Under the pieces are notes generated by a model. The model saw nothing but the letters and a program-made list of their open reading frames with translations, had not been told where the DNA came from and made no database searches. From a virus, in the IMG/VR virus record IMGVR_UViG_3300050821_002270, positions 1 through 56,244 of that record: a DNA stretch of 56,244 nucleotides. The stretch is one strand, 5' to 3'. Below are positions 7,548 through 51,096 of this stretch, one piece after another (position 1 is the first letter of the stretch; each line of letters begins with the position of its first letter). The position numbers were made by a program, and so were the translations under genes.

Positions 7548-7658
7548 CTAACCCCGCACCAGCCGGACAATCCCCACGATCAAGAGGCCCCAGAGTGCCG
7601 CGCTCGAAGTCCCGGCTATGAGCCATGTTCGGAGGGGAATGGTCACCTGTTGGGTCAT
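7548..7658 (-). CDS. 36-residue single-span membrane peptide
   Basis: ATG 7658 overlaps the stop of the beta-helix protein (ATGA coupling). The peptide has one span (AALWGLLIVGIVRLV) after a polar N-terminus and ends with basic residues. Its length and coupling support translation. A lysis or membrane accessory role is possible; no family is recognised. Confidence 0.65.
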   Translation of the reverse strand: MTQQVTIPLRTWLIAGTSSAALWGLLIVGIVRLVRG

Positions 7659-9697
7659 GGGATCACCCGGATATTGTACGTGGTCGCCGTAGGCGTTCCG
7701 GCGACCGCAGCACAAACTCTGGCGGTGACAACCCCAGTGGACGAAACGAATGCTTGCCAGTAGTTACCCGCACCAGGGTCGGCTACCGGGGTAGCCTCTA
7801 CTGCCATTGCCGTTGTGGCGCCTGTGATATTGACCGTGGTCGAGGCGCATGCCCCGGCGAGCAACGCGCCGCCTCCGATGCTGCTGGAGACGCCGGAAAG
7901 TGTGGCGTTCACGGTCGAGCAGTTCCACTGAAAGACGGTGCCGAGGCTGTTAGATTGCCCGGCATAGCAGTTGATGTTCTGACCAGGGATCAGGGTCTGG
8001 GTTGTGATGCCTGTGAGGCCGTTGAAGGTCTGCGTTCCATCGGTCGCCAGCGTGAGGTTGACCGCCCCGGAATTGGTGATGTCGAACTGGAGCCCGAGGT
8101 TGTTGTTGTTGACCGCCGTGTTGATGATCGTCGGAAGCGTCCAGGTGCAGCTCCCAGACGCCGGAATGGCCGTCAGGATGCCCGCACCGTTCCCTGCCGA
8201 GACCGTGAGATTGCAGGTCGCGTTGGCGATTTGAGTGCGCTGAGAAAATCCACCCAAAATGTTCGTGGGAGCCCAGTGCGAGAACGTGCCGAAGTTGGCC
8301 TCGACTTCCTGCGTTTGCCCAGTCGCTGCCTGGAAGATGCTGATACCACCCGTCCCATTGGTAGTATTTTCTTGGACGCCTTGGCAGGATTGCTGGACAA
8401 TCAGGCCAAGTGAATTCGGGCATTTGTCGCTGCCCGTGCTGGTGACATCAAACGAACCTGCAGACAGGAGACCGCCGTAGGTGTTACCGCCGCCACCGTT
8501 GCGGGCGATCATCGCTCCGCCGGGCGATCCACCAAAATTGAGATAGGTGTTGTAGGTTTGGTCAAGGGCGATAACAGTACCGGAGCCCTCCAAATCAAGA
8601 CCTGTATAGGTGTCGCCAGGGTGCAGGCCGCCGCCTTCGAGAGACAGGCCGGGAAAGCCGTCGAGAGCGAAGGTCAAGGCTGTCGTGCCGGTGGAGGAAA
8701 TCGGAGTCGCCTCAGCGTAGTTGGCCAGCTGCACGGTGCCGGAGCCGGACGCACCACTGACGCTGGTCACCACGTAGTGGCGATTGATCGTCAGGCCGTC
8801 CGCTGTGGATGTCGGATGCATCCACATGCCGACGCCCCACTTGGTGAGGTCGGAAACTGGCCAGTTTGGTGACCCGTTACTTGGGGTTACACTTAGTGAA
8901 TAAGGTACAAAACCTTTATTATCTTGAAGACCTGAAGAAATAATGCCACCAAAAACACTGCCGACAGTTGCAATTGACCGCCAGCCACGCAGATTATTGC
9001 AGAAGTCATTCCAGGCATAGACATTCCCGGCGCTATAGAAGTCGGTCGGGATGTCACCTTCAAGGATACCGCAGCCATTCGGGCCGCCGTTACGGATGAC
9101 GTTGCCCGACAACCAGAGCCCGACCATGTTCTCGAAGTTATAGCCTACGTCGGTCATGCCGATGATGACATTGTTCAGGATATGGCTATTCGCCAAGCCC
9201 GGGTTGTTGGTCGCGCCAATGTCAAATGCGCGGGTGAAATTGCTGAACCCGCAATTGTGGACGTTGAAATTTACAATCCAGTTTGTGAACGCTCCCGGCG
9301 AGCCGAGAGGCGTGTTGTTGCCCGTGAAGGCCGCGAAGGTCCCGTCGCCGGACAGCACGGTCCCATTGCCCGCTCCTCCGACGAAGGACAGGGAGTCGTA
9401 GATCGATTGCGTTGCGCCCTGGATCAGTGGTGTGACACAATTCACGGTCACATTGCTTAGCACCGGGAGCGCGGAGGCCAGAGTTACAGGCCCGTTGGGC
9501 ATATTGATGATGTAGGCGCGACCCGGATTGGCAGCGGCCGTCGTAAAGGCCGCTCGCACCGCTACGTCCGTAAGCCCATTCACGTTTACGACCGCTGGCT
9601 GAACGAAGGGCGCGGGCGGCGGAATCCATGGAACGCTGGCAATCGCTGGACCAGCAAGCGCCCACAGTGCCGCAATCGCGAGGAGAATGTGCTTCAT
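7655..9697 (-). CDS. Beta-helix tailspike-like protein with a Sec signal peptide
   Basis: 680 residues. It begins MKHILLAIAALWALAGPAIA, a textbook Sec signal peptide with an AIA cleavage motif. Residues about 40-330 show the repetitive beta-strand pattern of a right-handed parallel beta-helix (SNVTVNC, NWIVNFNVHNCGFSNF, SHILNNVIIGMTDV, LWLSGNVIRNGG), as in pectate-lyase-like tailspikes. The C-terminal ~200 residues are beta-rich with several Cys and contain a GITTQTLIPGQNINCYAG segment. Such spikes bind or cleave surface polysaccharide. A signal peptide is unexpected for a virion protein. It is flanked by other fibre-type genes. Confidence 0.8.
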   Translation of the reverse strand: MKHILLAIAALWALAGPAIASVPWIPPPAPFVQPAVVNVNGLTDVAVRAAFTTAAANPGRAYIINMPNGPVTLASALPVLSNVTVNCVTPLIQGATQSIYDSLSFVGGAGNGTVLSGDGTFAAFTGNNTPLGSPGAFTNWIVNFNVHNCGFSNFTRAFDIGATNNPGLANSHILNNVIIGMTDVGYNFENMVGLWLSGNVIRNGGPNGCGILEGDIPTDFYSAGNVYAWNDFCNNLRGWRSIATVGSVFGGIISSGLQDNKGFVPYSLSVTPSNGSPNWPVSDLTKWGVGMWMHPTSTADGLTINRHYVVTSVSGASGSGTVQLANYAEATPISSTGTTALTFALDGFPGLSLEGGGLHPGDTYTGLDLEGSGTVIALDQTYNTYLNFGGSPGGAMIARNGGGGNTYGGLLSAGSFDVTSTGSDKCPNSLGLIVQQSCQGVQENTTNGTGGISIFQAATGQTQEVEANFGTFSHWAPTNILGGFSQRTQIANATCNLTVSAGNGAGILTAIPASGSCTWTLPTIINTAVNNNNLGLQFDITNSGAVNLTLATDGTQTFNGLTGITTQTLIPGQNINCYAGQSNSLGTVFQWNCSTVNATLSGVSSSIGGGALLAGACASTTVNITGATTAMAVEATPVADPGAGNYWQAFVSSTGVVTARVCAAVAGTPTATTYNIRVIP

Positions 9698-9700
9698 GGC

Positions 9701-10138
9701 TCAGTTCCCCGTGAAGCTGATGGTGTCGGTGGTGGACGCCGCGCTGATGATGTAAATGGCGTTCAGGTTGGACACTCCGTAGGAAATGGAAGTGCCGGGA
9801 ACCAACTGGTATCCGGTTGATGTCGTGACCCCTGATGGGCCGACATAGATCGTCGCGCTATTCGTGCTGGGCGCGGTAATGACGATGCCATTGACCAGCG
9901 CCTTCGTCGGAAGGGCTGCGGCCGAGGTCGTGACGGTCTGCTGGTTGGAGTAGACGGTGGAGGGATTTGCCGCACCACACCCCGTCGTACAATATACCGC
10001 TACACCGTTTGTAGGGTCTACCGGGGCGGTGCTGGAGCCGGATAGATTGCCAATCGCCGTGACCGGAACAGCTTGGGCCGCGCTCGATAGCGCCAGGGCC
10101 AAGGCCGCTCCCGCAAAGATGGTTTTAGACAGCCGCAT
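9701..10138 (-). CDS. Small secreted beta protein
   Basis: 145 residues. A Sec-type signal peptide (KTIFAGAALALALSSAAQA) is followed by a Ser/Thr/Ala-rich, beta-predicted domain with a Cys pair (VYCTTGCG). The C-terminal SISYGVSNLNAIYIISAA and TDTISFTG resemble phage fibre trimming or decoration domains. It lies between two fibre genes in the same operon. Function is unknown; a receptor-binding accessory is plausible. Confidence 0.75.
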   Translation of the reverse strand: MRLSKTIFAGAALALALSSAAQAVPVTAIGNLSGSSTAPVDPTNGVAVYCTTGCGAANPSTVYSNQQTVTTSAAALPTKALVNGIVITAPSTNSATIYVGPSGVTTSTGYQLVPGTSISYGVSNLNAIYIISAASTTDTISFTGN

Positions 10139-10147
10139 TATCCGCCC

Positions 10148-10897
10148 CTATGACACCAGAGTTCCGCTGAACAGGCTACTCCAGACGCCGTCCCCAGCTC
10201 CATGATAAATCCCAACGTTCTTGGAACCGCTTCCGCCGCTGACCGCAAGCTGGACCCTCGCCACGTCCCCTACCGCCATGGGCAAGAGCGCCGCAACCTG
10301 TAGGGCCGCATTCCCCGCTCCATCCAGGTTCGCTATGCCGCTGGACCTGACAATGGTATTCTGGGTCGTGGCGATCTGGAGAACCGCCGTGGCGTGACCC
10401 GTCATGCTCGTCGCGGTGACGATAGCCTCGAAGTTGTAGTTGCCGGCCAGGGGGGCAGTGAATATCCCGTTCGCCGGATTGTAAGCCCCGGAGTTGGTAA
10501 GCGCGGTGTCAAAGATCACCGTCTGAACCGTCCCGTCCCCGGTCTGATTGGTCTGGTCCGCGCTCATTCTCGCCGAGAACACACAGGACCCGGAAAGCAG
10601 GTTGTCCACCGTCCAGATTGGAGTCGTCGGCGGGTCGGTGTCGGTTGGGGAGGTGAAGACCAGCTTATAGGCAATGCCGGTCGGAATCCATATGCCAACG
10701 CTGGCTCCGAAGGAGTTTTGGGGCTCGCCGCGCGCATTAAGCACGATGGGGTTGGTTTGGGCAGTACTTCCGGTTGAGTCGGTGTATGTTGTTATCTTTG
10801 TGGTTGTGGCCGCCGCGTAGATAAACAGCTTTCCGCCCAAGGCTGGCACGCCGTTGATAAAGAAATCTTGTACGGCGACGAGGCTTAAGGCTGGCAT
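10148..10897 (-). CDS. Tail fibre protein with C-terminal C1q-like domain
   Basis: 249 residues. The first ~100 residues match a recurrent podovirus fibre/spike N-terminal module: FFINGVPALGGKLFIYAA, YTDSTGSTAQTNPIVLNARG, then GIWIPTGIAYKLVF. From about residue 115 a C1q/TNF-like jelly-roll module follows (VIFDTALTNSGAYNPANGIF, TAPLAGNYNFEA), similar to the C-terminus of the 21869-23644 protein. It is likely a trimeric virion adhesin. Unlike its two downstream neighbours it has no signal peptide. The start touches the ATP-grasp gene's end. Confidence 0.8.
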   Translation of the reverse strand: MPALSLVAVQDFFINGVPALGGKLFIYAAATTTKITTYTDSTGSTAQTNPIVLNARGEPQNSFGASVGIWIPTGIAYKLVFTSPTDTDPPTTPIWTVDNLLSGSCVFSARMSADQTNQTGDGTVQTVIFDTALTNSGAYNPANGIFTAPLAGNYNFEAIVTATSMTGHATAVLQIATTQNTIVRSSGIANLDGAGNAALQVAALLPMAVGDVARVQLAVSGGSGSKNVGIYHGAGDGVWSSLFSGTLVS

Positions 10898-12219
10898 TAC
10901 ACCCCCGCTTCCATTTGGAGGGCATACCCATGCCGGTGGAGATCATCTAGCACAGCCACGATTTTGTCCCCGCCATCCGTTCTGAACTCCATGTCGCAGA
11001 AGCGGACCGCCTTCACAGCCTTATACGCCTTTGCCTTGGCCTTTTCGACCGTTGTTCCGACACCAGTAGCGACGCAGACCATTTCCCCCGCCGTCTGATA
11101 GGTCATGTCCTCTGCAACCTTATCACCCCTCATGACCGGCCCCTTGGCGCGCATCATCATGGCTGGGTGGATTTGATCGCGGACATCGTCAATCCCGCTC
11201 ACGGGATTGCCATCAACGCACTCGGGCTTGCCGTTGAACTGAGGCCACGGTGGCTGGGCGAGAACCACGCCCATAGACGGCCTGTAGTCCACAGACAGCG
11301 AGTCCTTGCCATCCAGCAAATCTCGCATCCACTGAACCGGGTCCCCCTTGTGCGTCGCCGTCTGCAAATAGAACGCGGGCCACCCCAAGCGCTGGGTTAG
11401 CTCAAACGGCCACGCCTTCCCCTTCTTGTCGATGCCACAGTTTATGGCAGTATCCCCGACATGCTTCAGCGCCACCATAACCGACTCTAGCGGCTTCAGC
11501 ATCTCGTCGGACATCTTTTCTTCTTCCTCATACTGGCATAAAGTGATCATTTCTCCAGTATTCGGGCCGATTTCTTCGTTCATGAGCTTTTTATGCTCAA
11601 AGGCTATTTGTGGTGTATTTATAAAACCTTCCGGTCCGCACCACATACTTACTCCCATCTCGCAATACATGTCGATTTTTTCTTGCAACATGCACTTTGA
11701 GTCGAGCCGCATTCCACGCGCCTTCTGGCGTCGGAGCCAGCCGACGAGTTCGGCCGGATCGTGAGCGATGAACGAAAGACTCTTGTCCTCTTCCGACCCC
11801 ATCGTCTTGAAGACATACGGATCGTTGGCCTTCATGGCGAAGGCTTCGGCCTCGTCTAGGGTGTTGAACATCTGGTAGTGGGGAAGGTCCAGCCCGGCGG
11901 CCTGCATGACTTTCATGCCCGCTTCCCGGTCGATTTCAAGCTGGGCAGAAGCGTAGGACGGCCCGAAGACCGGATAACCAAAATCGCGCCACCGCTCCAG
12001 CTCGGCCAAAAACTTAGCGTTCCCGGTCGGAAGGATCAGTCCGTCCTTCCCGCACCACTTGAGGCTGGCCTGAAGGTCCGTGACGCGCTTCACGCCCTTG
12101 AAGCCATCGCCGATGGGGTGCTTGGTCTGCTGGAATAGCTGGACTTCGTGACCGGCCTCAACGCAACGGATTGCGAAGTCCAGACCGGCTAGTTCCGTAT
12201 CGACGATGCAGACTTTGAT
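10897..12219 (-). CDS. PurD-like ATP-grasp enzyme (phosphoribosylamine-glycine ligase family)
   Basis: About 440 residues. It begins IKVCIVDTELAGLDFAIRC, the pre-ATP-grasp Rossmann-like strand of PurD enzymes, and continues with VFGPSYASAQLEIDREAGMK, YVFKTMGSEEDKSLSF and a late INCGIDKKGKAWPFELTQRL, matching the ATP-grasp core and metal-binding end. PurD joins phosphoribosylamine to glycine in purine synthesis, but the phage form is divergent and its substrate is unknown. The frame has no ATG near its N-terminus: the fold begins at an ATC codon (12219), 5 bases after GGGAGG. TTG 12282 is the only other in-frame start and would translate through a hairpin. It sits among fibre genes. Confidence 0.75.
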   Translation of the reverse strand: MKVCIVDTELAGLDFAIRCVEAGHEVQLFQQTKHPIGDGFKGVKRVTDLQASLKWCGKDGLILPTGNAKFLAELERWRDFGYPVFGPSYASAQLEIDREAGMKVMQAAGLDLPHYQMFNTLDEAEAFAMKANDPYVFKTMGSEEDKSLSFIAHDPAELVGWLRRQKARGMRLDSKCMLQEKIDMYCEMGVSMWCGPEGFINTPQIAFEHKKLMNEEIGPNTGEMITLCQYEEEEKMSDEMLKPLESVMVALKHVGDTAINCGIDKKGKAWPFELTQRLGWPAFYLQTATHKGDPVQWMRDLLDGKDSLSVDYRPSMGVVLAQPPWPQFNGKPECVDGNPVSGIDDVRDQIHPAMMMRAKGPVMRGDKVAEDMTYQTAGEMVCVATGVGTTVEKAKAKAYKAVKAVRFCDMEFRTDGGDKIVAVLDDLHRHGYALQMEAGV

Positions 12220-12246
12220 GTCAGCCTCCCGCCATGCTAAGGAGGT

Positions 12247-12276
12247 GGGGGCGCCGCGTTGACGCGCGGCGCCCCC
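12247..12276. promoter_or_regulatory. Perfect 12-bp GC hairpin in the ATP-grasp leader
   Basis: GGGGGCGCCGCG (12247-12258) and CGCGGCGCCCCC (12265-12276) form a perfect 12-bp stem with a 6-base loop. Leftward, it lies just upstream of CCTCC (12245-12241), which can pair with the GGAGG ahead of the presumed AUC start. No T-run follows, so a terminator is unlikely; translational control is more plausible. Confidence 0.6.
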
Positions 12277-12301
12277 GATCAATCAGGCTTAGGAGAGCCC
12301 G

Positions 12302-18965: not shown

Positions 18966-19602
18966 AGAGCGAGGATGACGTGAGGGTGTAGGTCAGGACA
19001 TCAAGCACAAAATCCAATCGATAGCTGACTGAACCCGTTGAGGCTTCCGAGAAGTTGACCCCCGACCATGTGCTTGTGCTCGTGTCGGCTATGACCGCGA
19101 TCCATCCATTCTGACCAGCCGGCGTATAGTTGGGATAGGACGATACCTGTAGCGTCCCTGTGAAAACCGTAGTCTCGACGCCAGAGATGATCTGCTGGAC
19201 CCGGTAGTTGCCATTATCGGCGAGGAAGGTGGAAGAAGCTTGGCTTCCCGCGAAGCTGATCGTGACACTTAGGTTTCCGGCAATGACGCTTGTCAGGTCA
19301 ACCCGAGGGCCGTTCGTCCAGATCGGGGAGACGGTCGGGCCAGCCTGTGAGGTGGTTCCCGATTGAGCCCCCGCACTCCCTCCATTATCGGCAACCGTCA
19401 GGGCGTTGTTCGCCTGCGTGATGGCTGCCTGGGCTTGGGCTAGAGCGGCATTGATCTGGCTTACTTGGGTCTGAACGGAAGCCGCCGACGATTCCAGCGT
19501 GGTGGCGACCTGATCCCACCACCTGACGAATATCTGTGTCGCGCTCCCATTCTGATCGACCAGGGGCGTATTCAGGGTCAGCCGGGGCAGCTGGAGCGCC
19601 AT
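18949..19602 (-). CDS. Tail protein at the gp26 position
   Basis: 217 residues. The N-terminus LPRLTLNTPLVDQNGSATQI followed by FVRWWDQV is common to tail proteins encoded next to gp10 in podoviruses. Residues about 35-75 are a heptad-type helix (VSQINAALAQAQAAITQANN). The C-terminal part is a beta domain with YRLDFVLDVLTYTLTSSS. It starts in contact with the gp10-like gene. A tail needle or fibre-attachment role is inferred from position; it is not recognisably P22 gp26 in sequence. Confidence 0.65.
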   Translation of the reverse strand: MALQLPRLTLNTPLVDQNGSATQIFVRWWDQVATTLESSAASVQTQVSQINAALAQAQAAITQANNALTVADNGGSAGAQSGTTSQAGPTVSPIWTNGPRVDLTSVIAGNLSVTISFAGSQASSTFLADNGNYRVQQIISGVETTVFTGTLQVSSYPNYTPAGQNGWIAVIADTSTSTWSGVNFSEASTGSVSYRLDFVLDVLTYTLTSSSLFARRA

Positions 19603-21035
19603 CAGGCGATCTCCGCGCCCATGAAGGCCGGGACGAAGTTATCCGTTGATGACAGTTCGAACACTCGATCGGAGTTTAGTCCCCGACGAGTCGATCCTAG
19701 GCGAGGAAAATTCAGGTTGGTCATGGTCTCGCCCTGCATGCCGATAGCGGCGTATTGCTCGGCAGACCAGTTGTTGCCGTCATCAAAGCTCTGCCTTAGG
19801 ACGACTTGCGGATTGGTTCCTACCGGGACTTGAACCCCCGTCTGACACTGGATATTCAGATAGTTGCACTTCTCAGTAGCATAGGCCGCCTCAGCCTGAG
19901 CCCTCCATGATCTAAGCCACTTCCTCGGTTGGCCATTATCAAGGAAGCTGTTCAGGTCAGCTGTGTAGATATTCGAGGAGTTGTTGTCCCCCATGTAGAT
20001 GACGCCGCCCGATTGAGCAGCGCAGCTCACCGTGTAGGCCGTCAGGAGCCCATTATTGAACCCGGCCCGCTGATGCCAGACAGGGAACCGCATCAGGTCG
20101 CTTTCCTTCAGGTCGTTGACATAGGTCACGTTCCCGGTCGGAAAGGTCAGGACATAGAAGGAGTGTCCTTCCTGCGTGTACCCAAACGCAAAAGCATCCA
20201 AGACGGTGAAGTTGGTCATCTGGTAGTCGATAGCGTAGGTCGAGACCTCAACTGGCTGATAACCGTCGATCCGATAGACCCTAGGCCCTCCATCCTGCGT
20301 CTGCCCGAGGAATAGGACCCGGTCGCTCACCGTGACAATGGCCGACGCTGTCACTGCCCCAATCGCCGGGAAAATCCCAGCCAGGCGTTGATATACAAAC
20401 CCATTAAGCCCCGCGTTGACATAGAAGCAGAGCGAGTTGACCTTGAAGACAATGACCTGATCATGGATAGCGACAAGCCCCACGACATTATCGTTATTCC
20501 CATCCTCTTCCGTGAAGTTGAGGCTTTGCCAGCTAGTCAGATCGCCTGAATCGCATTGCCAGATCGTCTGGGTTCCGGGCTGGGTCAGGAGACACAACGT
20601 GTCCTGATAGGCAGGCATCCCCACCGCGCCACTGAAGGGTAAGGTTACATTGGCCCAGCTCGATCCTCCCGGCGTCCACACCCATAGGCCCGTCGAGTCG
20701 AAGAACCCGATCTGCGTCTGGTTGGCCACGATGTAGGCTTGGCCCGTCGTGGTGCCGATATTCCCCAGATTGGTCCCGCTGCCATTGGCCTCGATTCGCA
20801 CGGCCGTATTGCCCGAGATGACATAGAGCAGCCCCTCCACAACCCGCATCGCACGGATTGAGGGACCGCTCCCGATGCCATGCCAGAATGTCAGCCCGGG
20901 GCAGCCGAGGAAGCCGCCTGGAGCATGCCCCTCCTTGGTTTCGACAGTTTCCAAGTATAGATTGACCAGCCTCTGATCGGCAAGAGTCTTCGACCTAGAC
21001 TGGTAAGCTGATCCCAGGAACGGCGTCCTTGCCAT
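19602..21035 (-). CDS. P22 gp10-like packaged-DNA stabilisation (tail accessory) protein
   Basis: 477 residues. The start RTPFLGSAYQSRSKTLADQR and LVNLYLETVE are family hallmarks of gp10-like proteins. Beta-propeller-like repeats follow (AMRVVEGLLYVISGNTAV, AYIVANQTQIGFFDSTG, RVYRIDGYQPVEVSTYAI), ending with ...FPRLGSTRRGLNSDRVFELS, also typical. It plugs and extends the portal after packaging and carries distal tail parts. It lies immediately downstream of the gp4-like gene, as in P22, with an 11-base gap. Confidence 0.9.
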   Translation of the reverse strand: MARTPFLGSAYQSRSKTLADQRLVNLYLETVETKEGHAPGGFLGCPGLTFWHGIGSGPSIRAMRVVEGLLYVISGNTAVRIEANGSGTNLGNIGTTTGQAYIVANQTQIGFFDSTGLWVWTPGGSSWANVTLPFSGAVGMPAYQDTLCLLTQPGTQTIWQCDSGDLTSWQSLNFTEEDGNNDNVVGLVAIHDQVIVFKVNSLCFYVNAGLNGFVYQRLAGIFPAIGAVTASAIVTVSDRVLFLGQTQDGGPRVYRIDGYQPVEVSTYAIDYQMTNFTVLDAFAFGYTQEGHSFYVLTFPTGNVTYVNDLKESDLMRFPVWHQRAGFNNGLLTAYTVSCAAQSGGVIYMGDNNSSNIYTADLNSFLDNGQPRKWLRSWRAQAEAAYATEKCNYLNIQCQTGVQVPVGTNPQVVLRQSFDDGNNWSAEQYAAIGMQGETMTNLNFPRLGSTRRGLNSDRVFELSSTDNFVPAFMGAEIA

Positions 21036-21046
21036 ATCCGCCTAAC

Positions 21047-21868
21047 CTAGCTGGTAGAGATCGCGGAGCCCGTCGAATCGGTATACACGTTGTAAGAAAT
21101 CTCCGCATGACTTACAATTTCTGGATCATACAGCGCATAGTTCTCACGCTGGTTCGTGCGCTTGATAGCTCCGAGAGACCGCCGCGCGGTCTCGGGAATG
21201 ACCGGGTCCATCTGCCCGTCGAGGAAGAAGGGCTTGGCAAGGACGGCGAGGTTGCTCCACATGGCGAGATTGTAGCCGGGGGGCAGGATGACCTGAGACG
21301 AGAGGCTGGAGAACTCCCCAAATTGGAGCATGGAGTCGAAGAACATCGTATAGGCGATGGTCGGGAAGGGGGTGATGTTGATTATCCCCAGGGGAAACTG
21401 AGGATCATAAAACATGATGTTGGGGAAATTCGAGGTGACGAGGTTGGATCGGTTGGCGTAGAGGTTCCACTTATCCCGAGGAACGACCTGGACGTTGTAG
21501 TTGTTGCCGTTCGAGTCCTGCACATAGGCCGTTCCTGGATCGGTCAGGATTTTCAGCGGGCGCGTGGTATTGATTTGGCCACCCGGTCCAATGGTATAGG
21601 ACGCCTGACCAGGAACTAGTGGGAAAGACTGCTCAAGGACCTCGTAACAGATGAGGCTGTAGTTGGACCATTCGTCCATCATGTCATTGAGCAGGGAGAG
21701 GAGAAGTTCCCCGTCCGCATCTGTCAGGGGACTGCGCGCTCCATAGGCCCCCGTAGCCTGAACGGCCTTCTGGCAGATATCTCCAGCCGTCGTAATCGCC
21801 ATGGCTTCCTCGCCCCCGCCCCCAAAGGGGCTGTCTCCAAATGTGAACTCGCCGAACCCGGAGCCCAT
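21047..21868 (-). CDS. P22 gp4-like head-completion / packaged-DNA stabilisation protein
   Basis: 273 residues. After a Gly-rich leader the core AITTAGDICQKAVQATGAYG, LLSLLNDMMDEWSNY and YTIGPGGQINTTRPLKI match gp4-type adaptor proteins that bind the portal ring. SLSSQVILPPGYNLAMWSNL is also conserved in the family. An internal ATG (MAITTAG, residue 23) would give a leaderless form closer to the family length. It is not a lysozyme by sequence here. Confidence 0.85.
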   Translation of the reverse strand: MGSGFGEFTFGDSPFGGGGEEAMAITTAGDICQKAVQATGAYGARSPLTDADGELLLSLLNDMMDEWSNYSLICYEVLEQSFPLVPGQASYTIGPGGQINTTRPLKILTDPGTAYVQDSNGNNYNVQVVPRDKWNLYANRSNLVTSNFPNIMFYDPQFPLGIINITPFPTIAYTMFFDSMLQFGEFSSLSSQVILPPGYNLAMWSNLAVLAKPFFLDGQMDPVIPETARRSLGAIKRTNQRENYALYDPEIVSHAEISYNVYTDSTGSAISTS

Positions 21869-23644
21869 CTATTCCACCAGATAGCACGAGAGGGTGGTCG
21901 CGCCGTTTCCTCCGTTGAATCCCACCACCTTGGAGCCCCCGCTGACCTGTAAGTGTAACTGCATGGTGGCGGTTGCGCCTAGTGTGATCAGGGACGATCC
22001 CATGATGGTGGCTACGCCGCCGCTGTTCTCCTTGGGAATTCCTTGAGTGAGTCCGTACAGGTTCCCGGAGTTATCTTTCAGGAAGGCTTGGGCAGCTGTA
22101 TAGGAGGCAGAGGCATATCCAGACATGACGATATCATAGGTGCAGGCATAGATGCCTGTGGCGGGAGCGGTGAAGGTTGACGTGCCTGTGTTGAAGTTGG
22201 TATTTCGGTCAAATCTCACGCTGTCCAAGACTACCGTGTAGTCGGTTCCATCCCCCGTGGCATTCGAGGCGCCAGTGGTTTTATACGCCGAGAAAGCGCT
22301 TTGGGCGGCCCTGGTGATTTGGCTCGTCGCGGGGTCGTAGTGCTCAACGACGGTGCGCGTACTGGAGTGAACCGTCATCAGGTCCACACCCGTTCCGGCG
22401 GTCATGCCCCAATCTACGCCCTCGCCGTGGGCTCCGTACTGGCGGATAGCGAGCGCCGCGTTGTTGTGGTCCGTCGAGTTGGCGTAATTTGTCGCGATGA
22501 TGCTAACGTTCGCCCAGCCGTTGAGGGTGTAGTCCCAGTCTAGGCAGGGGGAGATTCCCGAGATCGTCGTGGGAGCGCTGTACGGATAGGTCGCCCCGCA
22601 CGCCTCGAACGCTGCTTGCCCGCCAAAAACGCCGTTCCCGATATTGGACACCGTCTCGCGCAGGAAGTGCGTGCCGTAGTTGTTCGGCGTAACCGCCATC
22701 ACAATCGCACCCCCCGTCCCACTCAGGGTGGGGTTTTGCAGGATGGGAAACTCAAGGTCTGAAGAATACCCCTGGAATGCGTAAGAAGGGGAACCGCCGA
22801 AGCCCACCCATCCGGCCGTGCCATTATTGGGCGTTCCCGTTATTCCGCCCCCCAAAGACATGACGGGCTGCGAGAAGAAGTGCGCACCTTCATAGGGTGC
22901 ATTTGTCCATGGCTTACAGCTTCCGTCCGTTGAGTTCATATCACATGGCTGAAACCCGATTTGTGGCGTGTCACCCGGAAAGGAAAGACGAATACCACCA
23001 GTGTATATTTTGTTGACGGACGGAAGGGGAAACACACACAGAGCGCAAACTGGAATATTGTTGGTGGCGTTTCCGCCAGCTATAGGCCCCACCCCCCAAT
23101 ATGCCAGAGGGGGGCTGTCGCTATAGCCACCTGCACCGTAGATGTATCCATAGTTATACATACTTTGCGCGGAATAATTGACAATCTGCCATTGGTCCGA
23201 GCCCAGAGAGACCACATCAACCGTCTCCCCGACCCTGACAGGAAGGACATTGCTATATCCAGAGCCCCCTCCGGTCGAACCGATGGGCTGAAAGCCAGCA
23301 ATGTGGGTCCCGTCCTGAACGATCCCAATCGTGGTCGTGCCCACATTCTTGATCAGACGATGCAAGCCGCTCGGGCAGGCGCCAAAGTCCGTGACCGCGT
23401 TGCCCGAGGGGATGGTGGCCAGCAGATTTTCGCCCCATCCCGACTGACACAGATTCACCAACCCCGATCCAGTCGCGAAGGAAACCGATTGCCATTGGGT
23501 GGTGGCATAGTCCGTCTTGGACGCCCACGCCGAGTTCCATTGCGTCGGTGTCCAGACCTGACCCTGGAGGATCGGGGCATAGGGCACTGTCTGAGCGCTA
23601 GCCGCTGACGCCAATAGGCAAAGCAGGACAGCTAGTCGCTTCAT
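21869..23644 (-). CDS. Fibre/adhesin with signal peptide and C1q-like C-terminus
   Basis: 591 residues. MKRLAVLLCLLASAASAQ is a clear Sec signal peptide. The N-terminal third contains VWTPTQWNSAWASKTDYA and a beta-rich LIKNVGTTTIGIVQDG region as in phage tail-fibre modules. The middle is Gly/Asn-rich. The last ~135 residues form a C1q/TNF-like module (SVRFDRNTNFNTGTSTFTAP, ATGIYACTYDI) related to that of the 10148-10897 protein. It lies directly upstream of the gp4-like gene. It is probably a receptor-binding protein; the signal peptide is unexpected. Confidence 0.8.
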   Translation of the reverse strand: MKRLAVLLCLLASAASAQTVPYAPILQGQVWTPTQWNSAWASKTDYATTQWQSVSFATGSGLVNLCQSGWGENLLATIPSGNAVTDFGACPSGLHRLIKNVGTTTIGIVQDGTHIAGFQPIGSTGGGSGYSNVLPVRVGETVDVVSLGSDQWQIVNYSAQSMYNYGYIYGAGGYSDSPPLAYWGVGPIAGGNATNNIPVCALCVFPLPSVNKIYTGGIRLSFPGDTPQIGFQPCDMNSTDGSCKPWTNAPYEGAHFFSQPVMSLGGGITGTPNNGTAGWVGFGGSPSYAFQGYSSDLEFPILQNPTLSGTGGAIVMAVTPNNYGTHFLRETVSNIGNGVFGGQAAFEACGATYPYSAPTTISGISPCLDWDYTLNGWANVSIIATNYANSTDHNNAALAIRQYGAHGEGVDWGMTAGTGVDLMTVHSSTRTVVEHYDPATSQITRAAQSAFSAYKTTGASNATGDGTDYTVVLDSVRFDRNTNFNTGTSTFTAPATGIYACTYDIVMSGYASASYTAAQAFLKDNSGNLYGLTQGIPKENSGGVATIMGSSLITLGATATMQLHLQVSGGSKVVGFNGGNGATTLSCYLVE

Positions 23645-26876: not shown

Positions 26877-27335
26877 TTATCGAGCACGATATTTCTCCAC
26901 GCGCTCGCGGCCCACGCGCTGAAGAAGGCCCTCGTATCCCCCGAGGGCGATGTTACAGCGGTGGCACAGAAGCCCACGAACCTCTCCGCCAGCAGCCTTG
27001 AAGCCGTGATAGCCAGCGCCGATTTCGTGTTCGTGGTCGATGGACCACTTTCCCTTGCCGCCCGGCTCGGTTGTTTCACACAGCGCGCACTTTCCGCCTT
27101 GGCTTTCGAGCATGGCCGCGAAGGTCTCCGCAGTGAGTCCGTAGCGATCAAAGCGGCCAAACGCATCGTAGCGGCGCTTAACCAAAGCTGCATGATGTTC
27201 CGTGTTTTCGAGATAGCGGGCACGCGAGCGCGCAGACCGGCAGGCCTTGCACTCCGTCGTGTGTTTTCCCGTGTCACTCCGAACATAGAACTGATTCCAA
27301 TCCTTGGTTTCCAAGCAGTAAGAGCACTGTTGCAT
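26877..27335 (-). CDS. Endonuclease VII-type HNH nuclease
   Basis: 152 residues. CSYCLETKDWNQFYVRSDTG and CKACRSARSRARY form one zinc site. The catalytic part GKCALCETTEPGGKGKWSID (continuing HEHE) with GLLCHRCNIALGGY is the recombination endonuclease VII/His-Me finger signature. It is inserted between coat and the next structural gene, so it is probably a free-standing homing nuclease rather than a packaging enzyme. Spacing to coat is 50 bases, larger than most gaps in the operon, which agrees with insertion. Confidence 0.85.
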   Translation of the reverse strand: MQQCSYCLETKDWNQFYVRSDTGKHTTECKACRSARSRARYLENTEHHAALVKRRYDAFGRFDRYGLTAETFAAMLESQGGKCALCETTEPGGKGKWSIDHEHEIGAGYHGFKAAGGEVRGLLCHRCNIALGGYEGLLQRVGRERVEKYRAR

Positions 27336-27385: not shown

Positions 27386-28573
27386 TCAATTAGATAAGCG
27401 AACCCCTAGGTCATTGTAATACTGGGCGGTGCCGTAAAGAACATCAATCCTCGTGGGCAGCACATCGTTGGTGACGTCATATGCTCTAATAATCCGCATC
27501 GAAATCCCCTTCCACATCTCACGACTACGGAAGTCCACCCCATCGGGCAGTTCGAGCGGGACGGTGACGAGGCCGATGGCGTCGCGACAGAAGCCCAGGT
27601 TGTTGAAGTAGGACGTGCTCTTGACCGGGGCAGTGGCGGCGCTGACCGTGGCGAGGTTGGCGGGCGAGGCGGAGGCGTTCTGATAGGCGCCCGAGATGTT
27701 GATTGACGGGAAGATGGACAGGGTGGCGTTACCGCCGGAGTCAGAGTTCACCGCGCTGGTGATGACGAAGTCCTTCAGGGCGCCGGTCGATTGGCGGTTC
27801 TGCGGGTTGACTTCGAAGACGCCCGCGAAGGTCACGACGTCGCCCGCGTTGAACAGGCCGGTGATGGAAGGCGTCCAGCCATTGGTGACGATGAGGTTGC
27901 CGGTCTGATTGGCGCCGTTGACCACGCCAGCGCCCGCGAAGGCTCCCCACATATGGGCTTGGGCGTTCTGGTCGACGTAGATCGAGAAGTTGGCGATGTT
28001 GGCGAGGAAGCCCTTCAGGGCCGGTTCGGACACCATGGTCACGAACAGGTTGCTGACACCGTTGGCAAGCGACCAGTAGGCCGCCGGGTTCAGGACCAAG
28101 GTCCGCCCATCCTGAGGAGCCGCAAGCTCGTCAAGCCGCTGGCCGACGTTGGCGAGGGATTGGAAGCTGGCGGGGAGGGTGCCCGCCGTACCCACGAGGT
28201 TGGAGAACGAGGAGAAGTTGGAGAAGACGGTGTAGTCAATCGAGTTGGCGATGGTGACCGCAGCGGGCTTCAGGTAGCGCTCGCTGAACTCCTCGATGGT
28301 GAGGGTCAAATCCTGCGAGGAGAACTGGAAATCGACGTGTTGCTGGTTCGAGATGGTGATCGAGGTGGAGGGCTCGGAGATGTTCTGGATGACCAGGCCA
28401 GGCCCGTTCGTGATGACGAAGCGGTTGGGCTTGCGGATCGTGATCGCGTTGCCGATCTTGACGAACTGGTTCTCAAACTGGCGATTGACCTTGCCGGCCA
28501 TCACCAGATTGTTCTCCAGAATCACCAAGGTCTCCTTGGTGATCAGCGACGGAGTAAGAAGCGTATTGCTCAT
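27386..28573 (-). CDS. Major capsid protein, P22 coat (gp5) family
   Basis: 395 residues. LLTPSLITKETLVILENNLV, then GKVNRQFENQF and GNAITIRKPNRF, are the N-arm and first strands of the P22 coat family. SQDLTLTIEEFSERYLKPAA followed by VTIANSID is the conserved spine-helix region. The C-terminus contains FRSREMWKGISMRIIRAYDV, also typical. It assembles the HK97-fold shell on the scaffold encoded just upstream. The segment at about 70-112 is duplicated in the small 33569-33823 protein. Confidence 0.93.
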   Translation of the reverse strand: MSNTLLTPSLITKETLVILENNLVMAGKVNRQFENQFVKIGNAITIRKPNRFVITNGPGLVIQNISEPSTSITISNQQHVDFQFSSQDLTLTIEEFSERYLKPAAVTIANSIDYTVFSNFSSFSNLVGTAGTLPASFQSLANVGQRLDELAAPQDGRTLVLNPAAYWSLANGVSNLFVTMVSEPALKGFLANIANFSIYVDQNAQAHMWGAFAGAGVVNGANQTGNLIVTNGWTPSITGLFNAGDVVTFAGVFEVNPQNRQSTGALKDFVITSAVNSDSGGNATLSIFPSINISGAYQNASASPANLATVSAATAPVKSTSYFNNLGFCRDAIGLVTVPLELPDGVDFRSREMWKGISMRIIRAYDVTNDVLPTRIDVLYGTAQYYNDLGVRLSN

Positions 28574-29550: not shown

Positions 29551-29788
29551 TGGTCACGTCCTTGGGGGCAGTAGCGGCTTGAATGCGCTTGTCAATCAGG
29601 GTCCTGATACCATCACAGGCCAAATCCGCCCAATCCCCCAGGCGGTCGCGAAGGGCATGCAGGTCTGGGGCGATCTCGTGGATGAACCGATCAGTGCCCA
29701 CGTCGTAGGTCTTCAGCACATAGCCGTTTTCCGCCACAATGATCTCGGGGGGCTTAATGACGTACTCAAACCGAGGGGCCTCAGCCAT
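29543..29788 (-). CDS. Small hypothetical protein between portal and scaffold
   Basis: 81 residues from ATG 29788, which overlaps the portal stop region; an in-frame start at 29830 would lie inside portal. It has FEYVIKPPEIIVAENGYVLK and HALRDRLGDWADLACDGIRT. It overlaps the scaffold start by 8 bases. Function unknown; its position suggests a head-assembly accessory. Confidence 0.65.
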   Translation of the reverse strand: MAEAPRFEYVIKPPEIIVAENGYVLKTYDVGTDRFIHEIAPDLHALRDRLGDWADLACDGIRTLIDKRIQAATAPKDVTNG

Positions 29789-32120
29789 CGGCCTTGGCTC
29801 CAGACGATGCCGGCTCAGGTTCGGGTTCATGGGCCATTTTATCCAAGTCTAGTTCATGGTCATGTTCTGCGGAGGCGCGGTCGAGAATGTGGGCGTGATG
29901 AGCCAGCGCGTGATCATGGGTCTCTGCCCGGCGAGCGCGCATCTCGGTCATGATGATATCAGCCGTAGCCCTGGCCTGCTCTGCGGCGATCTTCTTGGAG
30001 CTATCGTCGGACTTGACGAGCATGGCCAGAAGCTTGCTTTCGAAATTCGTCTCGATAGCCTGCAATTTCACATCGCGATCCGCCGCCTTGTCCTGAAGTG
30101 CCTTCATGGCCTGTTGCAGCTGAAGCGTCAGGTCTTTGGACTGCTTTTCGAGGTTCTGGATCAGCGCTTGGATTTGCGGCGGCACGTCCTTGACGTCTGC
30201 CGTGAGCATCTGGGGCGAAATGGCCTTGGCGAGCCTGGCCGCGATCTTCTCAGCCCCGGGCCAATCCATCTCGCTGGCGATGAGGTCCATGACCAGTTGC
30301 GCCGTCTGAGGCATGGCCTTGACGAACGCCATCATGGACTCGGACGCTTCCTGACGCTTGGTGGCGTAGGACGGTCCAATATCCACCGTCACCCCGTACT
30401 CACCAAATGAGGGGTTGAAGAACCTCTGAATACCCTTGGGGCCCTGCACTTCCTTGTAGGCCGACTCCAGATTGGGATCGATGGTGACGTTCTGCTCCGT
30501 GTCGTCCTCGCGCAGGATCGTCATGACCTGCTTGCGGTTGTAGACCTTGCCGATGGCCTGCACGAGCTGTCTGCCCAGGAATGTCAGCGCGCGGCCTAGA
30601 TTGTCGTAGTAGTGGAACGCCCCAATATCCGTGTGACGCCCAAGCTCGCGGATCGCCCGACCGGACTCATCGTTCATGCGCTCCTGCATGGTAGCATCAA
30701 ACCGGATGCCGGTCGTAGCTATCATGTTCTGTTCGGCCTGCTGTTTGGCCACCACTACCCCGTCGGGCACGCCTGGCGGGGGTTGGCGCTGCGGGGGTGG
30801 AGCAACGTTCCCATCTACAGACGTGCCCTTGTAGGTCAGATATGGCCTTGACCGCGTGTTGGCGGTCTTCCATTCTTGCTCGTGGCCTTCGAACTGTCCC
30901 TCTTCCCCGATGTAGGGGGCCTTAGGAGCAAGGGCGACGAATTCGGTGATCATCGAATCCCAATAATTCGCCATCCGCTGGGCGTCCTTAGCGTCGCGGA
31001 TGATGCCAGATAGGACCACCTTGCCCTCGATATCAATCTCGTCCCCAATCACAGGGATGAGCGGAATCCAGTTCCCGATCCACTCGTTGGATTCGAGGAC
31101 CTCCAAGGCCGTGGCCTTGTAATACATCACCTTGCGTTCGTAGCTCTCACGGTCTTCGATGATATCGACCGCGCCCTTTTTGATCCGAGCTTGTGTCACT
31201 TCGTCCAAATCGTCCCATAGGCCCGTGTACCCCGTGGACAAAGACACAAGCCGCTTGGGCTTCTGGACAACCTCGAAATACTCCGCGACCCGGATGCCGT
31301 CCTTGGTGATCCAGTTCTTGTAGCGCTCGCCTTGGCCGCCCTGATCCCATGGGATGAGTTGGGCTTTGGGATACTCCAGCTCGAACTCGTCTTCCGGGAT
31401 GACCTCGGTTACGAAGCCGAAGCGAGCGTCTGACCCATCTGGCTCTTGCCTATCTGGGTCTAGGTAGACCGTGAAGGGATTGCGCACGCGCCGGATGACC
31501 AGCACTTGATCGAAGCTGTTCTCCGACTTCCATTCCGTGCCTAGGCGGATGTAGCCCCACCCCGACGTGACAGCGTCATCAAACGCTGTGTCATAGGCAA
31601 TGTCGGCATGGCTATCGCGCTCGATGGAGCGGATCAGGCCCTTGTACATCTTCGCCGCCTCCTTGTCGGAGCGCGAGCCTACGGGACTGATGTTGATGGA
31701 CGGGCGGTTTTCTCTGGCCGGGTTGGTGATCTGGTGGACGAAGGTCTTCATCCGGTTGTTGGTTAGGCAGGGTCGCTTGTCGGTGTTGCGCTGCTGCGCG
31801 ACGTCCGCCGGCCACTGATTACCCGCCTTGAACTTGCGGTCATCGACGGCGGCTTTACGGTTGTCCGACTCCGCCGCAATACATCGCTCCATACGCTTGC
31901 GCATACGGGCGATGACCTTTTGATCTTCCTCGGCTGAGCCCTTCTTGTCCTTCTTGTCGTCGTGATCGGGCGGAATGTCTGGCCCGACCTTGTCGCCCCT
32001 ACCCCTGATGACGTTGTCGTTGGGCTTGATCTTGTTCATGCCGGGCAGCACTTCAGGCAGGCTTAGCGTGCCCTTGGTGCGGGGCTTCTTGGGCGCGGCT
32101 GATTGCGGCTGGTCAACCAC
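29781..32120 (-). CDS. Portal protein, P22 gp1 family
   Basis: 779 residues from GTG 32120. The core RKAAVDDRKFKAGNQWPADV, NNRMKTFVHQITNPARENRP and TSGWGYIRLGTEW-type segments belong to the P22 portal family, longer than the ~725 of P22. A charged N-terminal extension (DDKKDKKGSAEEDQ) and a His/Ala-rich C-terminal helix (MRARRAETHDHALAHHAHIL) are present; the latter may extend the barrel seen in P22. Twelve subunits form the DNA entry ring and bind gp4-like adaptors. Confidence 0.92.
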   Translation of the reverse strand: MVDQPQSAAPKKPRTKGTLSLPEVLPGMNKIKPNDNVIRGRGDKVGPDIPPDHDDKKDKKGSAEEDQKVIARMRKRMERCIAAESDNRKAAVDDRKFKAGNQWPADVAQQRNTDKRPCLTNNRMKTFVHQITNPARENRPSINISPVGSRSDKEAAKMYKGLIRSIERDSHADIAYDTAFDDAVTSGWGYIRLGTEWKSENSFDQVLVIRRVRNPFTVYLDPDRQEPDGSDARFGFVTEVIPEDEFELEYPKAQLIPWDQGGQGERYKNWITKDGIRVAEYFEVVQKPKRLVSLSTGYTGLWDDLDEVTQARIKKGAVDIIEDRESYERKVMYYKATALEVLESNEWIGNWIPLIPVIGDEIDIEGKVVLSGIIRDAKDAQRMANYWDSMITEFVALAPKAPYIGEEGQFEGHEQEWKTANTRSRPYLTYKGTSVDGNVAPPPQRQPPPGVPDGVVVAKQQAEQNMIATTGIRFDATMQERMNDESGRAIRELGRHTDIGAFHYYDNLGRALTFLGRQLVQAIGKVYNRKQVMTILREDDTEQNVTIDPNLESAYKEVQGPKGIQRFFNPSFGEYGVTVDIGPSYATKRQEASESMMAFVKAMPQTAQLVMDLIASEMDWPGAEKIAARLAKAISPQMLTADVKDVPPQIQALIQNLEKQSKDLTLQLQQAMKALQDKAADRDVKLQAIETNFESKLLAMLVKSDDSSKKIAAEQARATADIIMTEMRARRAETHDHALAHHAHILDRASAEHDHELDLDKMAHEPEPEPASSGAKADG

Positions 32121-33375: not shown

Positions 33376-33578
33376 ATGATAACCTCTCCCGGCGCATCTT
33401 CAGCGTCGATAGCGTCCAGTATAGCCGCCATCGCCCGCTCGCGCATCTCTCGGTAAGCCCTGCCTTCCGTCTCCGTAAGCATGGCATAATACTCCTGTCC
33501 CCGCTCGTCCGCCATACTGAGCCGTATGACTTCACAGTCCGTCAGCGGGGAGTAGGATTGGAACTGGATTACGCGCAA
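33372..33578 (-). CDS. Hypothetical protein
   Basis: 68 residues with a beta-rich start (MRVIQFQSYSPLTDCEVIRL) and a helical end (AYREMRERAMAAILDAIDAE). Start overlaps the coat-fragment gene by 10 bases and stop overlaps the next by 4. Function unknown. Confidence 0.65.
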   Translation of the reverse strand: MRVIQFQSYSPLTDCEVIRLSMADERGQEYYAMLTETEGRAYREMRERAMAAILDAIDAEDAPGEVII

Positions 33579-33823
33579 GCTTGCTCGACCATTTGAGACG
33601 CGAGCGCATTCATCGCCGGCATGAGGTATCGCTCCGAATACTCATCAATGGTAAGGGCGAGTTCGGAATCGGCGGTGAACGTTGCTGCGACAGGCGTGGC
33701 GTGCGCAATCGTGACCGTCTCGGCGGCGACCGGCCGCGCCAAAGCGGCGGCAGGCGCAACGGCCACACCGAACAGCAGCCCCAGAAATCCACGTCGGCCG
33801 AACCCGCTCACGATGCCATCCAT
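33569..33823 (-). CDS. Twin-arginine leader fused to a coat-protein-like fragment
   Basis: 84 residues. The N-terminus GFGRRGFLGLLFGVAVAPAA is a twin-arginine (Tat) type signal with an ALA-like cleavage region near 28-34. The remaining ~50 residues, TVTIAHATPVAATF then SELALTIDEYSERYLMPAMN, align with coat residues about 70-112 (SITISNQQHVDFQF, QDLTLTIEEFSERYLKPAAV), with about half the aligned residues identical over the LTI(E/D)E(F/Y)SERYL region. Thus a capsid fragment appears to have gained an export-type leader. It overlaps terminase by 16 bases. Function unknown; not a remnant, as the frame is clean. Confidence 0.7.
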   Translation of the reverse strand: MDGIVSGFGRRGFLGLLFGVAVAPAAALARPVAAETVTIAHATPVAATFTADSELALTIDEYSERYLMPAMNALASQMVEQACA

Positions 33824-47446: not shown

Positions 47447-47524
47447 TCAGCTCCTCAAGCTCTCCGAGAGGGTCTTGAATAAGTGTTTCATGTGGGCGTT
47501 TTGTTGGGGCCGAGCGGGCGTCAT
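47447..47524 (-). CDS. 25-residue coupled peptide
   Basis: ATG 47524 overlaps the stop of the PAPS-reductase-like gene (ATGA). The peptide is basic and helical (HMKHLFKTLSESLRS) and ends just before GAGGAGCTGAG and the next ATG. It may be a translated linker. Confidence 0.45.
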   Translation of the reverse strand: MTPARPQQNAHMKHLFKTLSESLRS

Positions 47525-48336
47525 GTTTCACACAATCCGCCGTCGCATCCGGTTTGGCTCGCGTTTGGCCCGTCGCCATCGTCCAGTAGGTCTAGCTGGG
47601 CCGAGTTGTACTTTCCGCGCGCCGATTTGGCCCAATCAACAACCTCGCGGATTCCCGTCGCGCCCATCTTGCGGGCTGGCCTGAACATGGTGCGGGGCTT
47701 TCCATTGGACGTGTAGCCTAGATCATGCTCGACGCGCTCAACCCACGCAACCGCGACCTCAGGAGCCGCCAGAAGCCCCTTGCGGCCGGTGTTGACGCAC
47801 AGCATGCACTCCCGCGATTTGTGGGGCAGAACGGCATGGCCAGCGCGGAGGATCAGCGCATCCCGCATCTCGGCCGTGTGGGCGTATAGCGGCTGCCAGA
47901 CGAGTCGGCCGCCGTGCAAGGGGCTTTCCTCTACCCACTCGACCGTATCGGAGCGCTCTTGGCTTTCCGCCGCTCGTTTGCCGTTGACGCAGATGAGGGC
48001 CTTCTCGGGATCGCGTTCGGCAAGCCACTTCAGCGTCGGCCCAAGTTTTAGCGCCTCCGTGCAGAACTGCATCCCTTGGCGCGGCCACGCTTTCTTGTGG
48101 TGAACCAGGGCCTCCATGCCGATTGAGACCGTCCGGTCGGTTTGATACCCTAGCGAGTGCGCCCAACGCTCCATGCGGGCGACACGATCAAGCCAGCCTT
48201 CTTCGTCGCCATTCGGCGGCATTGGCCAGCCCGTGTCGTTGTAGAGGCACAGCACGCCAATCACCCCTCGCTCGTGCAGGAATTGCACCGTGGCGATGGT
48301 GTCATTCCCCCAGCTTGCGCCCGCGACGAATTTCAT
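47521..48336 (-). CDS. PAPS reductase-like / PP-loop ATPase protein
   Basis: 271 residues. VAGASWGNDTIATVQFLHER at residues about 4-23 is a variant PP-loop (usually SGGKDS), with LCLYNDTGWP after strand 2. GMQFCTEALKLGPTLKWLAE (Cys92) matches the CT..LK motif of PAPS reductase/DndC-like proteins. A later HKSRECMLCVNTGRKG gives a possible second Cys pair. Phage members are common; in family terms they activate a substrate with ATP or reduce PAPS, but the phage role is not known. Confidence 0.75.
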   Translation of the reverse strand: MKFVAGASWGNDTIATVQFLHERGVIGVLCLYNDTGWPMPPNGDEEGWLDRVARMERWAHSLGYQTDRTVSIGMEALVHHKKAWPRQGMQFCTEALKLGPTLKWLAERDPEKALICVNGKRAAESQERSDTVEWVEESPLHGGRLVWQPLYAHTAEMRDALILRAGHAVLPHKSRECMLCVNTGRKGLLAAPEVAVAWVERVEHDLGYTSNGKPRTMFRPARKMGATGIREVVDWAKSARGKYNSAQLDLLDDGDGPNASQTGCDGGLCET

Positions 48337-50421: not shown

Positions 50422-50603
50422 GATGGACGAATGAGCGCCCTCCAGAGGGCCAAATCAAGCTCTCTGGCAGTCGTATCGAGATAGGCGGCGATCTGGCCCA
50501 GCTTCCATTGCTCGACAAGCTTCCGCCGCGCTATCTGGAGCTGGAGATCGGATAAGACGCCGAAGTGATCCCGGCGCATGTAGGGGCCGCGAGCGCTACG
50601 CAT
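50418..50603 (-). CDS. Small helix-turn-helix-like protein
   Basis: 61 residues; ATG 50579 (RRDHFGVLSDL) is an alternative start. LQIARRKLVEQWKLGQIAAY, then LDTTARELDLALWRAL, resembles a small HTH. The start overlaps the end of the GcrA-like gene. Function unknown. Confidence 0.6.
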   Translation of the reverse strand: MRSARGPYMRRDHFGVLSDLQLQIARRKLVEQWKLGQIAAYLDTTARELDLALWRALIRPS

Positions 50604-51096
50604 ATCTGCGGATCGCTCTTTCGAGGTCGCGCAATGTGACCTTCTCGCCAGGCTGGACGGCTAGGAGATGATGTCGGCTGCAATAAGGGCCTTCCCGAGG
50701 CTTCGTGGCTCCGCAGAATAACTGAGCCCCCGACTCGCCCACGGGCCATTTGCAGCGCCGCTCGTTCAGGTCCATCAATCGCACAGCTGTTTGCGACGGT
50801 TCGTACTGAACCTCCGGACGTGGATCACGTATAATGCCAGGCGATAGGCCGGTGAATCTGGTCATGGGCTTATCGGGTTTGGGTTTGCGAGGAGCGGGTT
50901 TAGAGCTACGCGGGACTTGAGGGCGAGGATGGGAGCCGTTCGGACCCGCTACGCCAGTGCGTGTCAAATGTCCGAGAACGGCTCCGCGAGAAATCCCTAG
51001 CGCCTCGCCTATCTCGCCGCCGCTCTTGCCCGCTATCCAGAGGCCAACGGCTTTAGCGTGCCATTCATCGGACCATGCGTCGTTGTAGCCCATCAT
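50596..51096 (-). CDS. GcrA-family cell-cycle regulator homologue
   Basis: 166 residues from ATG 51096, whose ATG overlaps the stop of the winged-helix gene. WSDEWHAKAVGLWIAGKSGG, then EIGEALGISRGAVLGHLTRT, is the GcrA N-terminal HTH. The C-terminus LMDLNERRCKWPVGESGAQL, FCGATKPREGPYCSRHHLLA and VQP is the GcrA sigma-binding/zinc-like end. GcrA is an alphaproteobacterial regulator that binds RNA polymerase-sigma70 and acts at promoters with CcrM-methylated GANTC. A phage copy could redirect host or phage promoters. The family is confined mainly to alphaproteobacteria and their phages, which supports the host inference. Confidence 0.85.
   Translation of the reverse strand: MMGYNDAWSDEWHAKAVGLWIAGKSGGEIGEALGISRGAVLGHLTRTGVAGPNGSHPRPQVPRSSKPAPRKPKPDKPMTRFTGLSPGIIRDPRPEVQYEPSQTAVRLMDLNERRCKWPVGESGAQLFCGATKPREGPYCSRHHLLAVQPGEKVTLRDLERAIRRYA

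Follow-up and report, generated by a model that had tools for sequence, protein, structure and literature searches.

Predicted Sec signal peptides on fibre- and spike-type proteins encoded by the late genes of a P22-like phage

As the cytoplasm is the assumed site of assembly for the virion proteins of tailed phages, the late operon of the viral contig IMGVR_UViG_3300050821_002270 raises the question of why some of its virion-type proteins should begin as exported proteins do. The window, that is the whole stretch of DNA analysed (56,244 bp), bears this operon on its minus strand, and an earlier note had singled out three open reading frames with Sec-type leaders within it, encoding proteins of 680 (7655-9697), 145 (9701-10138) and 591 residues (21869-23644). 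Their coordinates, their strand and the n/h/c layout of their leaders were all confirmed, and the remark that export is unexpected for such proteins proved well founded, since it clashes with the cytoplasmic assembly of tailed phages.

From its gene content, the genome is that of a P22-like podovirus, with P22-type portal, coat and scaffold genes as well as gp4-like and gp10-like genes all present. The portal protein (29781-32120; PF16510, E 1.7e-164), the major coat protein (27386-28573; PF11651, E 2.7e-39), the gp4-like tail adaptor (21047-21868; phrog_12985, E 7e-29, named from its position and its similarity to the same gene in contig L287) and the gp10-like nozzle or head closure protein Hc3 (19602-21035; phrog_578, E 9.5e-72) are all encoded on the minus strand. 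The late operon also codes for the scaffold (phrog_8865), ejection proteins (phrog_598 and phrog_26400) and the large terminase, with an endolysin gene and a weakly matched spanin-like gene downstream. Regarding the host, the phage carries a GcrA homologue (50596-51141, minus strand; PF07750, E 1e-20), of a family which we take to be confined to Alphaproteobacteria, and the host is thus probably a Gram-negative alphaproteobacterium, in which a Sec leader would lead to the periplasm. Besides serving as a host clue, this homologue of a cell-cycle regulator may be a cell-cycle takeover gene. No close relative of the whole genome was found.

Several other genes of the window deserve mention in their own right. 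An ATP-grasp protein resembling phosphoribosylamine-glycine ligase (10897-12282; GARS domains, below the curated cut-off) is encoded in the middle of the structural operon, adjoining fibre genes, and has a TTG start in the list of open reading frames. A recombination endonuclease VII-type gene (26877-27335; PF02945) lies between the coat protein gene and the next structural genes, and an 84-residue open reading frame with a Tat-like start (GRRGFLGLLFGVAVAPAAALA), which may be a gene or a chance occurrence, stands beside the large terminase gene (33569-33823). Farther away are a PAPS-reductase-like gene of the auxiliary metabolic or DNA-modification type (47521-48336; phrog_424) and, on the plus strand and far from the structural operon, a gene combining DUF7666 with a collagen-like stretch that matches tail-fibre families (52870-53622).

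All three leaders display a positive n-region, a hydrophobic h-region and small residues at positions -3 and -1, the predicted cut following AIA in the 680-residue protein (MKHILLAIAALWALAGPAIA, then SV; leader at 9638-9697), AQA in the 145-residue protein (MRLSKTIFAGAALALALSSAAQA, then VPV; 10070-10138) and ASA in the 591-residue protein (MKRLAVLLCLLASAASA, then QTV; 23594-23644). The choice of start is constrained in each case by an upstream stop codon 2-10 bases away from the ATG, namely an in-frame stop two codons before the ATG of the 680-residue protein, another four codons before that of the 145-residue protein, and the TGA of the upstream gene two bases before that of the 591-residue protein. 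With a home-made score combining the n/h/c layout and a -3/-1 matrix, for which about 31 E. coli signals served as the training set, the leaders reached 11.9, 15.0 and 16.7 for the proteins of 680, 145 and 591 residues, respectively, compared with 10.5-19.4 for the training signals, a maximum of 10.8 among the 451 non-gene open reading frames of the window, and no other gene of the structural operon rose above 6.7. Leaders are accordingly absent from the portal, coat, scaffold, gp4, gp10 and ejection proteins of this contig. In an E. coli control stretch, which was scored with a first, sharper matrix and not with the smoother one applied to the three leaders, YaaX and YaaI, both expected to be exported, ranked at the top and the membrane protein NhaA just below. 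The leader of the 680-residue protein is the weakest of the three, and the score prefers for it a cut between ALA and GPA over that between AIA and SV. A lipoprotein signal processed by signal peptidase II was considered and rejected, as no lipobox is present and the +1 residues are S, V and Q and not Cys. As far as sequence can tell, these are real-looking leaders of the Sec and signal peptidase I type, for which export and cleavage are predicted.

The 680-residue protein matches a leaderless protein of 584 residues (L288:4510-6264; 28% identity over 577 residues, E 6e-24), the gene of which sits between a phage portal gene and a major head gene. In addition, its C-terminal module (7661-7927), corresponding to the last 89 residues, is 73% identical to the end of a protein from the P22-like contig L287, encoded directly downstream of the gp10 gene of that contig and itself equipped with a leader (MKIILILLAISAIPAIA, then HQG); the leader of the 680-residue protein gains support from this leadered homologue. 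Neither the 680-residue nor the 145-residue protein matched any PHROG or Pfam tail family, and direct searches of phage records and viral contigs with the full-length proteins of 680 and 591 residues returned no relatives; searches by module gave matches for the domain of the 145-residue protein and for the C-terminus of the 680-residue protein, and none for the N-terminus of the 591-residue protein. An AlphaFold model of the 680-residue protein made without relatives was unusable (mean pLDDT 34).

The 591-residue protein is encoded directly upstream of the gp4-like adaptor and ends in a C1q-like domain (21872-22297) that matches phrog_15750 (E 4e-7), a family of unknown function, as well as Pfam C1q below the cut-off (E 0.0035), with cerebellin-1 among the matches in PDB sequences. 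The same operon encodes a leaderless fibre-type protein of 249 residues (10148-10897, minus strand) with a C1q-like domain of its own (Pfam C1q, E 1.5e-8; phrog_15750), and the two domains share 31% identity (E 2e-9). This 249-residue protein, which provides an internal control, has an N-terminal module with about 40 homologues, all of them leaderless. The impression recorded in the earlier note that two of the three proteins look like fibres or spikes is thus borne out by the match of the 680-residue protein to L288 and by the C1q-like domain of the 591-residue protein.

For the 145-residue protein, AlphaFold predicts a jelly-roll domain with high confidence in the C-terminal part (9704-9946), preceded in the sequence by a CTTGC cysteine pair. 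Its match in BFVD is a protein of Gordonia phage Bakery (TMt 0.82), and the domain is found without leader in many phages, e.g. the Gordonia phages Vivi2 and Bakery; the nearest solved structures are only weakly similar, namely Bacillus Ena1C (9t3p; E 4e-4, TM 0.45) and 8pdz (TM about 0.45). Leadered homologues were found in L191 (77% identity), L192 (55%), L193 (52%; the same contig as L002), L194 (53%) and L204 (51%), where those of L194 and L204 fall below the signal-score cut-off because of unusual c-regions and are still counted as leadered; the other homologues are mostly short, leaderless and cysteine-free. In a domain tree of 67 rows, the clade formed by the 145-residue protein, L191 and L192 is leadered throughout, a second leadered clade comprises L002/L193, L194 and L204, and leaders are almost absent elsewhere, so that the leader label changes three times on the tree (about three gains), a number as low being reached in none of 500 shuffles. 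A profile search for this domain across 782 genomes, drawn from the order and class around two alphaproteobacterial genomes, recovered leaderless copies only, in two genomes. Regarding the surroundings of the leadered homologues, L191 is not P22-like (portal phrog_146, head phrog_264) and has three consecutive leadered genes between its portal gene and a head-morphogenesis gene, and L192 encodes a leadered protein with a GDSL-like region, over which it matches a tail-fibre family.

The recurrence of leaders in several unrelated phages, which the earlier note had overlooked, indicates from sequence that they are not a peculiarity of this genome. Acetobacter phage phiAX1 (LC644973), with its P22-like portal, has two leadered genes between its gp4-like and gp10-like genes, one of them encoding a GH66 glycoside hydrolase (L012:26424-28349), the annotated start of which (26529) omits a Sec leader in the same frame (MKKIIILALLLLAPCVHA). 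Directly upstream of gp4 in a betaproteobacterial prophage (L021/L184) lies a single leadered gene. In the prophage L181, which comes from the order to which a Methylocystaceae genome belongs, a leadered tail protein (phrog_8763, E 1e-42) with a single cysteine has its predicted cut between ADA and AGLWPLSY, exactly where its leaderless homologues begin (M-AGMWPLSY and M-AGLWNLSL); its leader begins with a GTG preceded by CTGGAG. Independent leadered homologues have leaders of unrelated letters but alike in their n/h/c layout, and practically every leader has an AXA-type cleavage site. Such leaders are rare, with one fibre-type case among 88 gp10 loci and two among 37 prophage loci. An N-terminal fibre motif suspected to be common to the leadered proteins was dropped, as it was not enriched (11 occurrences vs. 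15 in shuffles). The sharing of leaders by relatives in unrelated phages suggests a site of production outside the cytoplasm for some phage fibre proteins.

The cysteines of the mature chains bear on where these proteins would fold. The mature proteins of 680, 591 and 145 residues contain 12, 10 and 2 cysteines, respectively, and among 19 leadered proteins from nine contigs the mature count is even in 18 and odd in one (binomial p 4e-5), a sample that includes homologues and that amounts, by family, to about 13 even for one odd out of some 14 families. Of the 89 leaderless open reading frames of the same operons, 26 have an even count, 37 an odd one and 26 no cysteine at all, and the cysteine content is 1.67% in leadered vs. 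1.02% in leaderless proteins. A high and even number of cysteines in leadered chains is what periplasmic disulfide folding predicts, and it argues against cytoplasmic folding with an uncleaved leader.

This pattern is broken by a phage lineage represented by the contig G780 (L273-L275) and by G781 (L280), in which about ten genes of the structural operon have Sec-type leaders, the cysteine counts of the G780 leadered proteins being 3, 0, 1, 9, 6, 1 and 3. With gene roles read from sequence and gene order, only some of which family searches confirm, the leaders of G780 fall on outer-type proteins (decoration-like, nozzle-like and fibre-like), and the terminase, portal, scaffold, major coat, adaptor and ejection-type genes are leaderless. 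The leadered nozzle-like protein contains a laminin-G domain, its homology to the virion structural family phrog_3287 begins right after the leader, and its hhalign match to gp10 is weak; a leader on such a protein is hard to reconcile with full export, since the tail needs this part.

In the reading we consider probable, fibre- and spike-type phage proteins have acquired functional Sec signal peptides that can be cleaved off, and these proteins would be exported, folded with disulfide bonds, released at lysis and then either act freely or dock late on the virion. Late in infection, the three proteins would cross the inner membrane of their host, probably an alphaproteobacterium, signal peptidase I would cut their leaders, and the mature chains would fold in the oxidising periplasm with disulfide bonds, out of reach of the heads, which assemble in the cytoplasm, until the action of holin and endolysin opens the cell. 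What speaks for it is sequence-based, namely the leaders and their starts, the fact that they recur, the pattern of cysteines and the homology to virion-type proteins; export, cleavage and disulfides are what we infer from them for the three proteins. As for their fate after lysis, our guess is that they bind, and possibly degrade, glycans or receptors, either as free proteins, which is the simpler outcome, or by docking on particles at or after lysis, which is the more novel one. A more specific version, a two-compartment assembly in which fibres, spikes and decoration proteins would be produced and joined by disulfides in the periplasm, docking only once lysis opens the inner membrane, is less likely than not and is proposed tentatively, on account of the G780 leaders being confined to outer-type proteins and missing from the terminase, portal, scaffold, coat, adaptor and ejection-type ones.

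One branch of this preferred reading can also be taken on its own: the proteins may be exported and never enter the virion, as cargo secreted from the late operon, for instance soluble receptor blockers (preventing superinfection and keeping progeny from being lost on debris), adhesins or hydrolases acting freely on polysaccharides. We regard this as possible, though clearly short of an even chance. It agrees with the leadered GH66 hydrolase of phiAX1, with the rarity and patchiness of leadered genes among otherwise similar phages, and with the leadered SGNH esterase encoded outside the structural operon of the P22-like phage PBR31 (PMC10975493), but sits less easily with the leaderless homologues in structural operons (L288, L182 and Gordonia phages), with modules common to leaderless fibres of the same operon and with genes interleaved with gp4 and gp10. 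The secreted adhesins or depolymerases proposed in the earlier note keep their place within it, the GH66 neighbour in phiAX1 and the GDSL-like protein of L192 being of that kind. The other proposal of that note, a leader retained as an anchor, has been weakened: that an uncleaved hydrophobic N-terminus fixes the protein to the virion or to the inner membrane, without export, would suit genes at the canonical place among virion genes and the leadered nozzle-like protein of G780, a core tail part expected to assemble in the cytoplasm, but appears unlikely given the AXA-type sites, the L181 cut falling on the ancestral N-terminus, leadered chains rich in cysteines in even numbers, and the lack of leaders on the portal, coat, scaffold, gp4, gp10 and ejection proteins of this very contig. 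Least credible of all, and very improbable in our judgement, is that hydrophobic N-termini merely resemble signals through chance or wrong starts. The score of the 680-residue leader is indeed moderate, the predictor is home-made and GC-rich open reading frames are rich in alanine, but the non-gene open reading frames of the window all score lower, leaders with unrelated letters and the same layout occur in independent homologues, and the ATGs abut upstream stops.

A recurrent and apparently functional Sec leader on fibre-type proteins challenges the assumption of cytoplasmic assembly. Either phages would export soluble receptor-binding or sugar-degrading proteins beside their particles, or part of the virion would be completed only at lysis, and either outcome would alter the annotation and the expression of receptor-binding proteins. 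In practice, leadered proteins should be expressed under oxidising conditions with the leader removed. Where a gene caller trims the start, the signal is lost, and the GH66 gene of phiAX1 is an example. In the literature searched, which left aside most subscription journals and preprints and hence is no proof of novelty, signal peptides of tailed phages were limited to lysis-type proteins, unspecified hypothetical proteins and gp40 of phage PBR31, the latter being the closest case, and no description of leaders on fibre-type proteins from the structural operon of tailed phages was found.

Exported phage proteins as such are known for lysis and superinfection exclusion. Filamentous phages have virion proteins with cleavable Sec signal peptides, namely pIII and pVIII, but inovirus particles take shape in the inner membrane and leave the cell by extrusion, whereas the present phage is tailed and its heads form in the cytoplasm. 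Llp of T5 and Cor of phi80 are exported periplasmic or surface blockers, the llp gene of T5 even adjoining the receptor-binding gene; unlike these small lipoproteins, the present proteins are large, virion-like and of the signal-peptidase-I type. The jelly-roll protein Ena of the Bacillus endospore appendage provides the best solved-structure match of the 145-residue protein domain, and its subunits form disulfide-linked fibres, but the fold match is weak, there is no sequence match and Ena is cellular. Among phages, phiAX1 comes near by its P22-like portal and the position of its two leadered genes between gp4-like and gp10-like genes, but one of these encodes a hydrolase and no sequence similarity to the three proteins was found; the paper on this phage makes no mention of signals (PMC8566455). 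In the P22-like Xanthomonas phage PBR31, a signal peptide has been published for gp40, an enzyme resembling tail-associated hydrolases, for which the authors suggest a role in lysis (PMC10975493); its gene lies outside the structural operon and on the other strand. There is also a resemblance to the tailspikes and fibres of P22-like phages themselves, which are receptor-binding proteins, through the position in the late structural operon, the beta-rich and modular organisation with C1q-like and spike-like domains, and the full-length homology of the 680-residue protein to a leaderless protein of a structural operon. Yet the classical ones lack a signal peptide and are both synthesised and attached in the cytoplasm, whereas in this phage an AXA-type Sec leader precedes mature chains in which cysteines are frequent.
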